Positions 10,110 through 48,325 of a stretch of DNA of 64,000 bases are shown one piece after another. The stretch is taken from NCBI RefSeq assembly GCF_016772315.1, contig NZ_CP053482.1, positions 434,001-498,000 on the forward strand. The letters are read 5' to 3'. The position numbers and the translations under genes are program-made. Position 1 is the stretch's first letter. Each line of letters opens with the position of its first letter. A model generated the notes under the pieces. The model was not told the origin of the DNA and made no database searches. It saw only the letters and a list, made by a program, of their open reading frames with translations. This DNA comes from Thiothrix subterranea (GTDB lineage Bacteria; Pseudomonadota; Gammaproteobacteria; Thiotrichales; Thiotrichaceae).

Positions 10110-10136
10110 GCCCTTCTCTCGCACGGGGAGAAGGGC
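10110..10136 (+). terminator. Hairpin downstream of pckA (repeat-family member)
   Basis: GCCCTTCTC (10110-10118) pairs with GAGAAGGGC (10128-10136) around a 9-nt loop and is followed by TTTC. It probably terminates pckA. Its sequence also resembles the shorter members of the dispersed repeat family seen at 41301 and 48277. Confidence 0.6.
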
Positions 10137-10194
10137 TTTCCGCCGTAAAATCCGCTATAGTGTGCTCTTAACCCCTGACCCCAAGAGCCACCCC

Positions 10195-24497: not shown

Positions 24498-24539
24498 CCT
24501 GTGTTATCATGCTTCCCACCCACTTCATTGGAAAAAACC

Positions 24540-26117
24540 ATGCGCAAACTGCCACGCTTGTTCCTCGCTCTCTGTTTAACCTATGCCCCGTTTGCCCTTG
24601 CCGAAACCGTGCTGAAACGCGGCAATGGCACTGAACCGGAAACGCTGGATATTCACCAATCCTCCGGCGTTTCTGAAGCGAATATTCAGCGTGATATGTT
24701 TGAAGGGCTGGTCACAGAAGATGCGGTTGGCAAGCTGCAACCCGGTGTAGCAGAAAAATGGGAAATCAGCGCCGACGGTAAGCGCTACACCTTCCACTTG
24801 CGCAAAGACAGCCAGTGGTCAGATGGCATCGCGTTGACGGCTGACGATTTCGTGTACGCCTACCAGCGGGCGCTTGCCCCGGAAACCGCGTCCGACTACG
24901 CCTTTATCCTCTGGCCGATTGCAGGCGCAGAAGCCTTCAACAAAGGCGAGCAAAAAGACCCTGACAGCATTGGCGTGAAAGCCGTCGACCCACAAACGTT
25001 GGAAATAACCCTCAAAGCCCCAACCTCCTATTTCCTCGGCATGTTAATGCACCCGATGGCGTTCCCCATTCCCAAACACGCCGTTGAAAAAGCGGGTAAG
25101 GATTGGATCAAACCCGAAAACATCCGCTGCAACGGTGCGTACTGCCTGAGCGAATGGACACCGCAAGCCCACGTCAAACTGCTGAAGAACCCGCATTACC
25201 GCCGCGCTGCCGAGGTAAAAATTGACAGCGTGTATTACATTCCTACCGAAGATCAGAACAGCGAACTCAAGCGTTACCGTGCCGGGGAAATCGACATTAC
25301 CTACGATGTGCCATCCGATCAAATTAAAACCGTCGCGCAAGATTACGCCGCAGAATTCCATAGCACGCCGTACATTGGCACGTATTATTACGCTTTGAAT
25401 CTGGAAAATCCGGCGTTCAAGGAAAATCCTAAGTTGCGTCGCGCCCTCTCGCTGGCGTTAGATCGCGACATTCTCACCGAAAAAATTACCCAAGCCGGTG
25501 AAATCCCCGCGTGGGGTTGGGTTCCACCCGTCGATAATTACACCCAGCAAAACATGGAAGAAAAATCGCTGGATAAAGCCGCTCGCACCAAACTTGCCCA
25601 AGAGCTGTATGCCGAAAGCGGCTATGGCGCTGACAAACCGCTGGGGCTGGAAATTCTCTACAACACCAGCGACAACAATAAGAAGCTCGCGATTGCTGTC
25701 GCAGCGATGTGGAAACAAACCTTAGGCGTGAAAACCAACCTGCGTAATGAGGAATGGAAAGTCTACCTCAGCTCACGTAAGCAAAAGCAGTTCCAAGTAG
25801 TACGCTCCAGTTGGATTGGCGACTACAACGACGCACACACCTTCCTCAGCCTGTTCAAGTCCGATGTGGGTGAAATGAACACCTCTGGCTACAAAAATCC
25901 CGAATTCGACCGTTTAATGGCAGAAGCCGAAACCCAAACCGACACCAAAAAGCGCCAAGAAGCCATGGAACAAGCTGAACGCATTCTATTGGCGGATACG
26001 CCGATCATCCCGATTTACTACAACACCACTCAACACTTGGTCAGCCCGAAAATCACCGGGTGGGAAAATAACGTGATGGATGTGCATCCAACCCAGTATC
26101 TGGGCTTAGTGCCATAA
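24540..26117 (+). CDS. oppA: Oligopeptide ABC transporter substrate-binding protein
   Basis: A 525-residue periplasmic protein of the family 5 extracellular solute-binding proteins. It has a signal peptide (MRKLPRLFLALCLTYAPFALA) and the hallmarks of OppA/MppA: RGNGTEPETLDIHQSSG, EGLVTEDAVGKLQPGVAEKWEIS, TFHLRKDSQWSDG, and the domain II segment RSSWIGDYNDAHTFLSLF. OppA captures peptides for import by OppBCDF; MppA binds murein tripeptide. The permeases are absent from the window, and the only OppD-like ATPase lies 36 kb away at 60292. I chose the ATG at 24540 because the signal peptide begins there; an upstream in-frame codon at 24501 would add a non-signal extension. Confidence 0.9.
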   Translation: MRKLPRLFLALCLTYAPFALAETVLKRGNGTEPETLDIHQSSGVSEANIQRDMFEGLVTEDAVGKLQPGVAEKWEISADGKRYTFHLRKDSQWSDGIALTADDFVYAYQRALAPETASDYAFILWPIAGAEAFNKGEQKDPDSIGVKAVDPQTLEITLKAPTSYFLGMLMHPMAFPIPKHAVEKAGKDWIKPENIRCNGAYCLSEWTPQAHVKLLKNPHYRRAAEVKIDSVYYIPTEDQNSELKRYRAGEIDITYDVPSDQIKTVAQDYAAEFHSTPYIGTYYYALNLENPAFKENPKLRRALSLALDRDILTEKITQAGEIPAWGWVPPVDNYTQQNMEEKSLDKAARTKLAQELYAESGYGADKPLGLEILYNTSDNNKKLAIAVAAMWKQTLGVKTNLRNEEWKVYLSSRKQKQFQVVRSSWIGDYNDAHTFLSLFKSDVGEMNTSGYKNPEFDRLMAEAETQTDTKKRQEAMEQAERILLADTPIIPIYYNTTQHLVSPKITGWENNVMDVHPTQYLGLVP

Positions 26118-26159
26118 AGACATAACGACCAAAACCACGCCTCACCAAAGGAAATAACC

Positions 26160-28070
26160 ATGTCAGACAACGCCCAAACGCCCGACCCACAAGCCGGAAT
26201 CAATACCTTAGGGTTTGCCTCTGTTGCCAAAGAAATGCAGGAAAACTTCAAACAAGTTGAAGAAATCATGGCCAGTTTCAGCAAAGCGCATGAAGGGATG
26301 AAACTTGATCCATTCAATTTGAAACAGGCTTACAGCGATTGGATGGAAGCCGTTACCAAAAATCCCGAAAAGCTCATTGAAACCAATATGGCTTTCTGGC
26401 AAAAGTCGATGGAACTGAGCCAGCAAGCCATGCAAAGTTTCATGAGCGGGCAGCCTACGACTAAGGTATTTGAAACGCCAAAATCCGACCGCCGTTTCAG
26501 CCACGAAGACTGGGAAAACAAACCCGCGTTTGATGTGATCAAACAGACCTATCTAATGGTTTCTGACTGGACGCGCCAAATCGTCGCCTCCGCCGAAGGC
26601 TTGGATGACCACACCGCCGAGCGCGTCAAGTTTTTCACCGAACGCAGTCTCGATGCGATGTCGCCGACCAATTTCGCCCTGACCAATCCGGCAGTGTTGG
26701 AAAAAATCCGCAATACCAAAGGCGCGAATCTGGTACACGGCCTGAAAAACATGCTGGAAGATTTGGAAGCAGGTAACGGTCAATTGCGGATTCGTATGAC
26801 CGACACCAAAGCCTTCAAGCTAGGTGAAAACGTCGCCGTCACCCCCGGCAAAGTCGTATTCCAGAATAAAATGTTTCAGTTGATTCAATACACGCCAAGC
26901 ACGGAAACCGTTCTGAAGCGCCCGCTGTTGATCGTACCACCTTGGATCAACAAGTTTTACATTCTGGATTTGCAACCGAAAAACTCCATGCTCAAATGGC
27001 TGGTGGATCAAGGGCATACCGTCTACGTGATGTCGTGGGTCAACCCCGATGAAACCTATGTGGATACGGGTTTTGAAGACTACATTCACGCGGTTATCAA
27101 CGCGATGGATGCGGTGCAATACGATAGCGGCGAGTCTGAGCTGAACATGATTGGCTACTGCATCGGCGGCACATTGCTATCATCCACTTTGGCTTACTTG
27201 AAAAGCAAAGGCGATACCCGCGTTAAAAGTGCTACATTCTTCACCACCATGTTGGATTTCTCAGAACCGGGTGAACTAGGCGTGTTTATTGACGAAGCTC
27301 AGATCAGTACACTCGAAGCACAAATGCAGGAACAGGGTTACATGGATGGCAGCACCATGTCAGGCGCGTTCAATCTGTTGCGGGCGAATGATTTGATTTG
27401 GTCGTTCTACGTCAATAACTACTTGTTGGGCAACGATCCGCGTCCGTTTGACTTGCTGTACTGGAATTCGGATTCAACCCGGATGCCGGTGAAAATGCAC
27501 TCTTGGTATCTGCGTAACCTCTACAAAGACAACAAACTCTGCCAACCCAAAGCACTGAGTGTGGACGGTGTGGAATTGGATTTAGGCACGATTGATGTAC
27601 CTGCGTGCTTCATTTCCACCATCGAAGACCACATTGCGCCTTGGAAATCTACCTATTCCGGTGCGCGGTTGTTTGGCGGCGATGTGCGCTTCATTTTGGG
27701 CGGTTCCGGGCATATTGCCGGTATCGTGAATCCACCTGCTGCCAATAAGTACAACTATCGCGTCAGCAACGAACTGCCGGAAAGTGCTGATACATGGTTA
27801 GCCAACACGCAAGTGAATGCAGGTTCTTGGTGGCCGGAATGGGATAGTTGGGTACGTGCACTAGCTAACAATGAACAGGTTGATGCACGCCAGCCGGGGG
27901 CTGGCAAACTTGCAGCGATTGAGAATGCGCCGGGTACTTACGTCAAATGCCGCTTGGGTGAACCGACACCGGTACTAGAACCAACGGTGCTACCGGATTC
28001 GGCTTCGCCGTCACCCGTCGCCCCCCAGCCCTCTCTCCCTAAAAAGGCGAAAGTAAGCAAGAAAAAATAA
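26160..28070 (+). CDS. phaC: Class I poly(3-hydroxyalkanoate) synthase
   Basis: A 636-residue PHA synthase polymerising (R)-3-hydroxyacyl-CoA into storage granules. The lipase-like box GYCIGG holds the nucleophile (Cys334); the other triad members sit in the DLLYWNSDSTRMP region and at EDHIAPW (His). The N-terminal ~200 residues and the TPG-VVFQN block are typical of class I. AAGGAA precedes the ATG. The last ~19 residues (Pro-rich then KKAKVSKKK) and the TAA are encoded by DNA that aligns with the dispersed palindromic repeat at 41301-41406, suggesting the original C-terminus was replaced or extended. phaA, phaB and phasin genes are not adjacent. Confidence 0.93.
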   Translation: MSDNAQTPDPQAGINTLGFASVAKEMQENFKQVEEIMASFSKAHEGMKLDPFNLKQAYSDWMEAVTKNPEKLIETNMAFWQKSMELSQQAMQSFMSGQPTTKVFETPKSDRRFSHEDWENKPAFDVIKQTYLMVSDWTRQIVASAEGLDDHTAERVKFFTERSLDAMSPTNFALTNPAVLEKIRNTKGANLVHGLKNMLEDLEAGNGQLRIRMTDTKAFKLGENVAVTPGKVVFQNKMFQLIQYTPSTETVLKRPLLIVPPWINKFYILDLQPKNSMLKWLVDQGHTVYVMSWVNPDETYVDTGFEDYIHAVINAMDAVQYDSGESELNMIGYCIGGTLLSSTLAYLKSKGDTRVKSATFFTTMLDFSEPGELGVFIDEAQISTLEAQMQEQGYMDGSTMSGAFNLLRANDLIWSFYVNNYLLGNDPRPFDLLYWNSDSTRMPVKMHSWYLRNLYKDNKLCQPKALSVDGVELDLGTIDVPACFISTIEDHIAPWKSTYSGARLFGGDVRFILGGSGHIAGIVNPPAANKYNYRVSNELPESADTWLANTQVNAGSWWPEWDSWVRALANNEQVDARQPGAGKLAAIENAPGTYVKCRLGEPTPVLEPTVLPDSASPSPVAPQPSLPKKAKVSKKK

Positions 28071-28086
28071 ACTCTTAGCCCCTCTC
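28021..28086. repeat. Diverged copy of the dispersed GC-rich repeat spanning the phaC 3' end
   Basis: Bases 28021-28086 align with the reverse complement of 41333-41397: the first 42 positions match at 34 sites, and the last 15 (CTCTTAGCCCCTCTC) are identical. By eye the overall identity is about 80 %. The copy encodes the last phaC codons and its stop and lies between convergent phaC and trmJ. Confidence 0.7.
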
Positions 28087-28090
28087 TAGC

Positions 28091-28843
28091 TTACTCGCGG
28101 GTTTGGAACTTCCGACCCGCGAACGCCGCCAACATGCCCCGTAAGATATTCATCTCACTCACCGTCACCCCTGCCCGCCCAAACAGCCGCCGCAGCCGCC
28201 GCATCAGCAAACGCGGATTTTCAGGGTCAAGAAAGCGGGTAGCAATCATCGACTGTTCCAAATGCGTGTAAAAGCTTTCCATAGACTCGGCACTGGCTAA
28301 GGCATCATCCGGGTCAGGAGGCGTCGTTTCGCTAGGCGTTGCCAAGCGCACCGCCGTCGCACATTCGTAAGCCAATACCTGAATCGCCATCGCAATATTC
28401 AACGAAAAAAAGTCGAATGCCATGGGGATATGCACCAAGGTATTGCAGTGATCGAGTTCTTCATTGGTCAAACCGCTGCGCTCGCGCCCAAAGACCAGCG
28501 CAATTTTCTGCTGCGGCAAATGTTCGGCAACGAATACGCCGCATTCCCGTGAATCCATCTGCGGCCATTGCAAGGTACGTTCGGAACGCGCACTTGCGCC
28601 GATCACGATGTGGCAATCCGCCACCGCATCTTGCAAGGTCGGGACAATTTTTGCCTGTTCGATAATGTCATTCGCGCCGGATGCCAATGCCCAAGTGTCT
28701 TGCGAATACGGTTTGCGCGGGGCAACGAGGCGTAAGTCCTGAATCCCCATGACTTTCATGGCACGCGCTGCCGAGCCGATATTGCCGGGGTGCGAGGTTT
28801 CCACCATGACGATGCACAGGTGTTCTAACGCGGGTGTGTACAT
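28091..28843 (-). CDS. trmJ: tRNA (cytidine/uridine-2'-O-)-methyltransferase TrmJ
   Basis: A 250-residue SPOUT-class RNA 2'-O-methyltransferase that modifies position 32 of tRNA anticodon loops. The start region VMVETSHPGNIGSAARAMKVMG carries the conserved Asn-Ile-Gly-x-x-Ala-Arg motif. The knot signatures LVFGRERSGLTNEEL and IPMAFDFFSLNIAMAIQVLAYE follow. The C-terminal ~80 residues (MESFYTHLEQSM...LRRLFGRAGVTVSEMNILRGML) are the dimer-stabilising helical tail typical of TrmJ. The livF gene starts 20 bp upstream on the same strand but ends before trmJ's own start, so read-through is possible. Confidence 0.92.
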   Translation of the reverse strand: MYTPALEHLCIVMVETSHPGNIGSAARAMKVMGIQDLRLVAPRKPYSQDTWALASGANDIIEQAKIVPTLQDAVADCHIVIGASARSERTLQWPQMDSRECGVFVAEHLPQQKIALVFGRERSGLTNEELDHCNTLVHIPMAFDFFSLNIAMAIQVLAYECATAVRLATPSETTPPDPDDALASAESMESFYTHLEQSMIATRFLDPENPRLLMRRLRRLFGRAGVTVSEMNILRGMLAAFAGRKFQTRE

Positions 28844-41249: not shown

Positions 41250-41298
41250 GTTATAATCGTACAAACGCCACGTATCTGCGTGCAGCAGACCGTGGCGT
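41250..41298 (-). promoter_or_regulatory. sucC leader: -10-like hexamer and strong dyad
   Basis: On the minus strand TATAAC occurs at 41255-41250. Just upstream, 41265-41298 forms a dyad: ACGCCACG with CGTGGCGT and inside it TCTGC with GCAGA around GTGCA. A second short dyad, CCGCG-AAAA-CGCGG, lies at 41236-41249. They could be an operator at a sucC promoter or part of an attenuator. No good -35 was seen. Confidence 0.4.
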
Positions 41299-41300
41299 GT

Positions 41301-41406
41301 TACCCCTCACCCCAACCCCTCTCCCTCAAGGGGAGAGGGGCTAAGAGGCTTTATCTCTTGCTCCCCCTCGCCCCTTGAGGGAGAGGGGGCTGGGGGGTGA
41401 GGGGTA
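41301..41406. repeat. Long GC-rich palindromic repeat between lpd and sucC
   Basis: Outer arms TACCCCTCACCCC (41301-41313) and GGGGTGAGGGGTA (41394-41406) are exact reverse complements, as are 18-nt inner arms at 41317-41334 and 41371-41388; the middle pairs imperfectly (11 of 15). The whole can fold into one very long hairpin. Related sequences occur at 10104-10140, 28021-28086 and 48258-48308. Confidence 0.85.
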
Positions 41407-41413
41407 CACCATA

Positions 41414-42856
<1,443 letters not shown>

Positions 42857-48257: not shown

Positions 48258-48308
48258 GGGAATTCCCCCATCCCCCGCCCTTCCCTCGCAAGGGGTGAAG
48301 GGCGTTAA
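48258..48308. repeat. Copy of the dispersed GC-rich repeat between convergent genes
   Basis: GCCCTTC (48277-48283) and GAAGGGC (48297-48303) form a hairpin, extended inside by CCT/AGG. The surrounding run (CCCCCATCCCCCG ... AAGGGG ... GTTAAGA) aligns with one half of the repeat at 41301. It lies between the cytochrome c' and YeeE/YedE genes and may end both transcripts. Confidence 0.6.
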
Positions 48309-48325
48309 GACTGTAATCGTAATGA

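Follow-up and report, generated by a model that had tools for sequence, protein, structure and literature searches.

Sequence comparison points to a dispersed palindromic element as the source of the C-terminus and stop codon of PhaC in Thiothrix

Both C-terminal fusions of small repeats that bring a new stop codon and palindromes read in frame inside proteins are already known elsewhere. In the accessible part of Delihas 2007 (PMC2759123), an RU-1/ERIC element is fused to the 3′ end of an amidase gene (ECA3499), alongside further C-terminal fusions. There, a dispersed small element adds C-terminal residues beyond the conserved domain, the normal stop is lost, a new stop is located inside the element and the remainder of the element lies downstream. 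The accessible part of a review on Rickettsia palindromic elements (RPE; PMC10969869) describes short palindromes in frame in many unrelated protein genes and treats the question of repeat entry into proteins mainly for Rickettsia. For PHA synthases, the accessible part of a Cobetia study (PMC8686332) reports a class I enzyme, PhaC2, with an extended basic C-terminus that carries AAKP motifs and HC2 histone-like matches, and for which DNA or nucleoid binding was proposed.

The 3′ end of phaC in Thiothrix subterranea is a new instance of such fusions. It is like the RU-1/ERIC case, as far as that is described in the accessible part of the report, in all the features listed above. The repeat and the host are unrelated, however, and the Thiothrix element appears to have replaced an older tail, is found at this position in four species and sits on a rearrangement junction. 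It offers an example, spread over several species, of a dispersed palindrome that would have supplied a core metabolic enzyme with both its C-terminus and its stop codon. The likeness to RPE as described in the accessible part of the review lies in a short palindrome in frame inside many unrelated protein genes. In contrast to Rickettsia, the host is a free-living sulfur bacterium, and the element is roughly 105 bp long, is accompanied by half-size copies and is used in several reading frames across its host proteins.

The locus was analyzed in a 64,000-nt stretch of the T. subterranea genome (the window; genome G000 of the 16 Thiothrix genomes compared). An open reading frame on the plus strand (26160..28070) encodes a 636-aa protein with a PhaC_N domain (Pfam, E = 6.5e-76) and an alpha/beta hydrolase core homologous to solved PhaC, on which we assign it to the class I PHA synthases. 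Alignments with solved PHA synthases cover no more than residues 62-602, which places the repeat-derived tail outside the catalytic domain and leaves the catalytic part of PhaC untouched by the element. An AlphaFold model of the protein, built from 16 sequences, is too weak for use (mean pLDDT 58.7); residues 616-636 are among those with the lowest pLDDT (about 30), which is consistent with disorder and proves little. On the 5′ side of phaC lies a gene that we take to be oppA, encoding a peptide-binding protein (24501..26117, plus strand), an order common to G000, G009, G015, G011 and G007. On the 3′ side, a convergent gene (28091..28843, minus strand) is presumably trmJ, which encodes an RNA methyltransferase.

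The earlier note had described a 66-bp match of about 80 % between 28021-28086 and one half of a palindromic repeat. The similarity is real, but it begins at 28013 and covers more than one half. By BLASTN, window positions 28086-28013 match positions 43-115 of the stretch 41291-41420 on the reverse strand, i.e., in the orientation opposite to the palindrome at 41300-41407 (79.7 % over 74 columns; E = 1e-12 within the 64-kb window, E = 3.3e-11 in a whole-genome search). The 15-bp exact match that had been noted, CTCTTAGCCCCTCTC, is included in this alignment. The palindrome itself is a full intergenic copy on the plus strand (41300..41407; nhmmer E = 6e-34) with a predicted hairpin of -94.8 kcal/mol (z = -9.8). 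An nhmmer profile made from 17 other full copies, from which the phaC copies were excluded, also matched the phaC end (E = 1.7e-10) over profile positions 35-107 of 110, which comprise one arm, the spacer and the beginning of the second arm. By these alignments, the phaC 3′ end is a diverged, truncated copy of the dispersed element (28013..28086, minus strand). Codons 619-636 (28014..28067), which read PVAPQPSLPKKAKVSKKK, agree with the repeat consensus at 43 of 54 sites, and the TAA stop (28068..28070) aligns within the element spacer. The claim that the end of PhaC is repeat-derived is thereby borne out for the last 18 residues and the stop.

Full copies of the element consist of two arms, ACCCCTCACCCCAACCCCTCTCCCTCAAGGGG(A/C)GAGGGGCTAAGA and TCTTG(C/T)TCCCCCTCGCCCCTTGAGGGAGAGGGGGCT(G/A)GGGGGTGAGGGGT, with small differences among copies and a variable spacer between them. 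All five full copies that were folded form very stable hairpins (-89 to -109 kcal/mol, z about -9 to -10). Comparing the copies of the repeat within the genome, as the earlier note had proposed, we found at least 43 non-overlapping copies in G000, 18 of them full; this is a lower bound from stretches that were picked from whole-genome search matches. The element was found in 14 of 16 Thiothrix genomes (E up to 1e-5), and outside the genus it matched weakly in three of 41 genomes. A search against Rfam gave 29 matches at E up to 0.1, mostly to miRNA families; all were under the gathering scores and mirror only the long hairpin, and a known Rfam identity was rejected. REP elements, which are associated with RAYT transposases, are likewise dispersed (extragenic) palindromes. 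The Thiothrix element is longer, and the Y1_Tnp family (PF01797) had no match in G000, while the same search was positive in five of 14 genomes; a RAYT-driven REP reading was therefore rejected. Among the papers listed by literature searches, none dealt with this repeat or the peptides it encodes, and as far as that literature goes, it seems not to have been described that the element has entered many Thiothrix proteins.

A repeat-derived tail is common to four of the 10 genus genomes that have this phaC (G000, G002, G009 and G010). In G010 both arms are kept and the phaC stop lies within the spacer of a complete element (E = 1.1e-15), making this copy a visible intermediate. In the other six (G015, G011, G007, G014, G006 and G008), the profile matched nothing below E = 0.5 in the region of the phaC stop. 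None of these six has the same tail, which is the finding that would have refuted the reading of the earlier note; all six end differently. Measured from a common point, five of these relatives have Ala/Pro/Lys-rich tails of 43, 60, 66, 77 and 78 residues, compared to 35 in G000, and the sixth (G006) ends almost immediately, after 13 residues (LPEK). The earlier note had called the repeat-derived end a C-terminal extension. As the repeat-free relatives mostly have longer tails, we infer that the element instead replaced an older PhaC tail in this lineage.

Outside the genus, a profile search of eight phaC loci of the family found no element match near the phaC stop; the PhaC tails of these relatives are 113-244 residues long. 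In a Pfam scan of five PhaC proteins, helix-hairpin-helix matches were found in three from the family (L039, L040 and L041), and HC2 histone-like matches in two of these three, one of them above the family cut-off; the remaining two (L036 and L031) had neither. In L039, L040 and L041, the long Lys/Ala-rich tail ends in the helix-hairpin-helix domain, an arrangement suggestive of a DNA-binding module built into the PHA synthase. These basic tails are alike to that of Cobetia PhaC2 as characterized in the accessible part of that study, whereas the tail of the T. subterranea enzyme consists of 18 repeat-derived residues and has no AAKP motif.

phaC adjoins the convergent trmJ in all four genomes with the repeat tail and in none of the other six. 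Since only these four have the two genes side by side, the element sits on a rearrangement junction. In a genome without this phaC (G005), oppA faces trmJ directly across a gap of about 12 bp (L217:5640-5670); window positions 26100-28100, where G000 has phaC, are the counterpart of this gap. The arrangement in G005 represents either an empty site or a loss.

In a four-protein tree of the 16 genomes, G002 and G010 are far from G000 and G009. At 4-fold sites, phaC of G000 diverges from G002 and G010 by 0.21-0.30 and mutL by 0.53-0.56 (for G010, 0.21 and 0.56, respectively). Between the sisters G000 and G009, phaC is the more divergent gene (0.18, against 0.07 for mutL), which the simple history proposed below does not explain and which counts against it. 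As the divergence of phaC is discordant with mutL and with the tree, phaC with its repeat tail probably moved between Thiothrix lineages. For oppA, four of five comparisons had only 10-18 such sites; these counts are unreliable and were left out. The 4-fold divergence of trmJ from G000 is 0.22 in G002 and 0.53 in its sister G010 (L106, L097), a contrast that we take to indicate that the phaC-trmJ block has been exchanged. In G009 (L087:2300-4220), roughly 1.9 kb interrupts phaC itself after about codon 60; minus-strand frames in this segment resemble, by eye, a group II intron reverse transcriptase.

Read in the frame of phaC, the repeat consensus gives PLTPQPPLPQGARGSKK, soon followed by an in-frame stop in 11 of 17 full copies (counted on translations). 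The repeat encodes PQPPLPQGARGSKK in this frame, where PhaC has PKKAKxSKKK. All four phaC copies share five fixed departures from the repeat (four G-to-A changes and one C-to-A change), of which at least four fall in codons turned lysine. The Lys-rich character of the tail, which the earlier note had ascribed to the repeat, is thus owed mostly to fixed substitutions to A; it is also not specific to the repeat, as relatives without the repeat have Lys-rich tails too. After the substitutions, the tail reads PKKAK(V/G)SKKK and is similar to its counterpart in relatives, PKKPKV. Of 73 consensus sites, 65 show the repeat base in one or more of the four phaC copies. Where the copies differ among themselves (20 sites), this base is one of the variants in 17 cases; therefore, the ancestor of the four copies would have been closer to the repeat than they are, in line with descent of all four from a normal copy.

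We consider the following account highly probable as a whole. In one lineage of Thiothrix, an approximately 105-bp palindromic element would have become linked to phaC at its 3′ end, through transposition or recombination, at the time of a rearrangement that placed phaC beside trmJ and that the element may have mediated. The older Ala/Pro/Lys-rich tail would have been swapped for 18 element codons and a stop, with the element read in frame as TPQPPLPQGARGSKK and translation ending at the TAA that aligns in its spacer. Later substitutions to A raised the lysine content to PKKAK(V/G)SKKK, three of the four copies shed most of one arm with the frame kept open, and phaC with this tail probably moved between lineages. 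If the tail has a role at all, it would most likely act as a short basic tail of the kind seen in relatives, which might bind nucleic acid or granule partners.

It is quite possible, though we lean the other way, that the tail is repeat-derived as proposed and has no function at all, with the frame open by chance and the lysines resulting from drift to A. The nearly absent tail of G006 indicates that the tail is not essential, and the comparison is based on a small sample, only four phaC copies. Yet the frame and the KKAKxSKKK end are kept in all four genomes, although phaC of the other three differs from that of G000 at 0.18-0.30 of 4-fold sites, and drift would have to account for the placement of the fixed differences in codons turned lysine.

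We find it rather unlikely that the element was kept for a role in DNA or RNA, as a hairpin, terminator or stabilizer between convergent genes, with the peptide as a passenger. Such a role would fit the stable hairpins of intact copies and the convergence of phaC and trmJ, and the phaC element of G010 still folds (z = -3.4), where RNA structure might be the cause of conservation. In three of the four phaC copies, however, most of one arm is gone while the frame is still open, and for G000 and G002 the predicted fold is on a par with shuffles (z = -1.4 and 0.3), leaving the conservation of the tail in these two genomes unexplained by RNA structure. A terminator at the phaC-trmJ junction was rejected, as no terminator-like site was found at 27900-28300.

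It seems less probable still that the tail is a chimera, in which the element inserted around or beside the old last codons, PKKAK is a leftover of a PKKPKV end and only the codons before and after it are repeat-derived. PKKPKV and PKKAKV are one residue apart, and the 18-nt lysine core of the phaC copies matches the G011 tail end at 13-14 of 18 positions, slightly above its match to the repeats (mean 10.9-11.9 of 18). But the alignment to the repeat is gapless over the 54 coding sites except for a single base close to the stop, and the sequences on either side of the core favor the repeat by a wide margin: the left 30 nt score 18-22 against the repeat and 5-10 against the G011 tail end, the right flank 12-20 and 6-9. 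We therefore read the likeness of the core to G011 as convergence, with retained codons as the rival. Finally, chance likeness between C-rich and A-rich DNA, suggested by the low complexity of both sequences, has practically no probability left: the local score of the phaC end against the element was 38, the highest of 2000 dinucleotide-preserving shuffles of 28021-28086 was 17, the best window tile other than the two loci scored 18, and G010 contains the complete element.

Entry of the element into genes extends beyond phaC. In G000, 15 of the 43 copies are in frame within 12 Pfam-supported genes, which encode PhaC, RseC, MutL (two copies), a sigma-54 activator, a Methyltransf_28 protein, PrmC (two), an ABC exporter, an RND pump (two), an HlyD-like protein (a weak match, 18 bits), a DNA methylase, a UvrD-like helicase and SMC. 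As in PhaC, the copy in RseC is C-terminal, beyond the domain. Orthologs in all 16 genomes were compared for three of the 11 non-phaC genes (Methyltransf_28, PrmC and MutL). Only G000 and G009 carry the Methyltransf_28 insert; the same loop holds a different insert in G013 and none in 13 of the 16 genomes. The loops of PrmC and MutL carry differing repeat-like inserts in many species. The element thus shares with RPE, as described, that it is palindromic, dispersed and multicopy, lies in frame inside conserved genes and, for Methyltransf_28, is absent from orthologs.

This survey of one genome suggests Thiothrix as a free-living comparative system for the entry of repeats into proteins at tolerant sites. 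More speculatively, and as a tentative proposal only, selfish DNA may have been domesticated as a basic PhaC tail by selection, through C/G-to-A changes in the QGARGSK codons that converge on PKKPKV and restore a basic tail to the enzyme; on a wider view, Thiothrix would be a second, free-living home of Rickettsia-like protein-invading palindromes. The in-frame copies in G000 genes other than those for PhaC and the HlyD-like protein lie in L146, L149, L155, L014, L015, L016, L144, L145, L147 and L153. Within the window, two further weak matches to the element were observed, at 10111-10137 (81 %, 27 bp) and at 48272-48310 (74 %, 39 bp).
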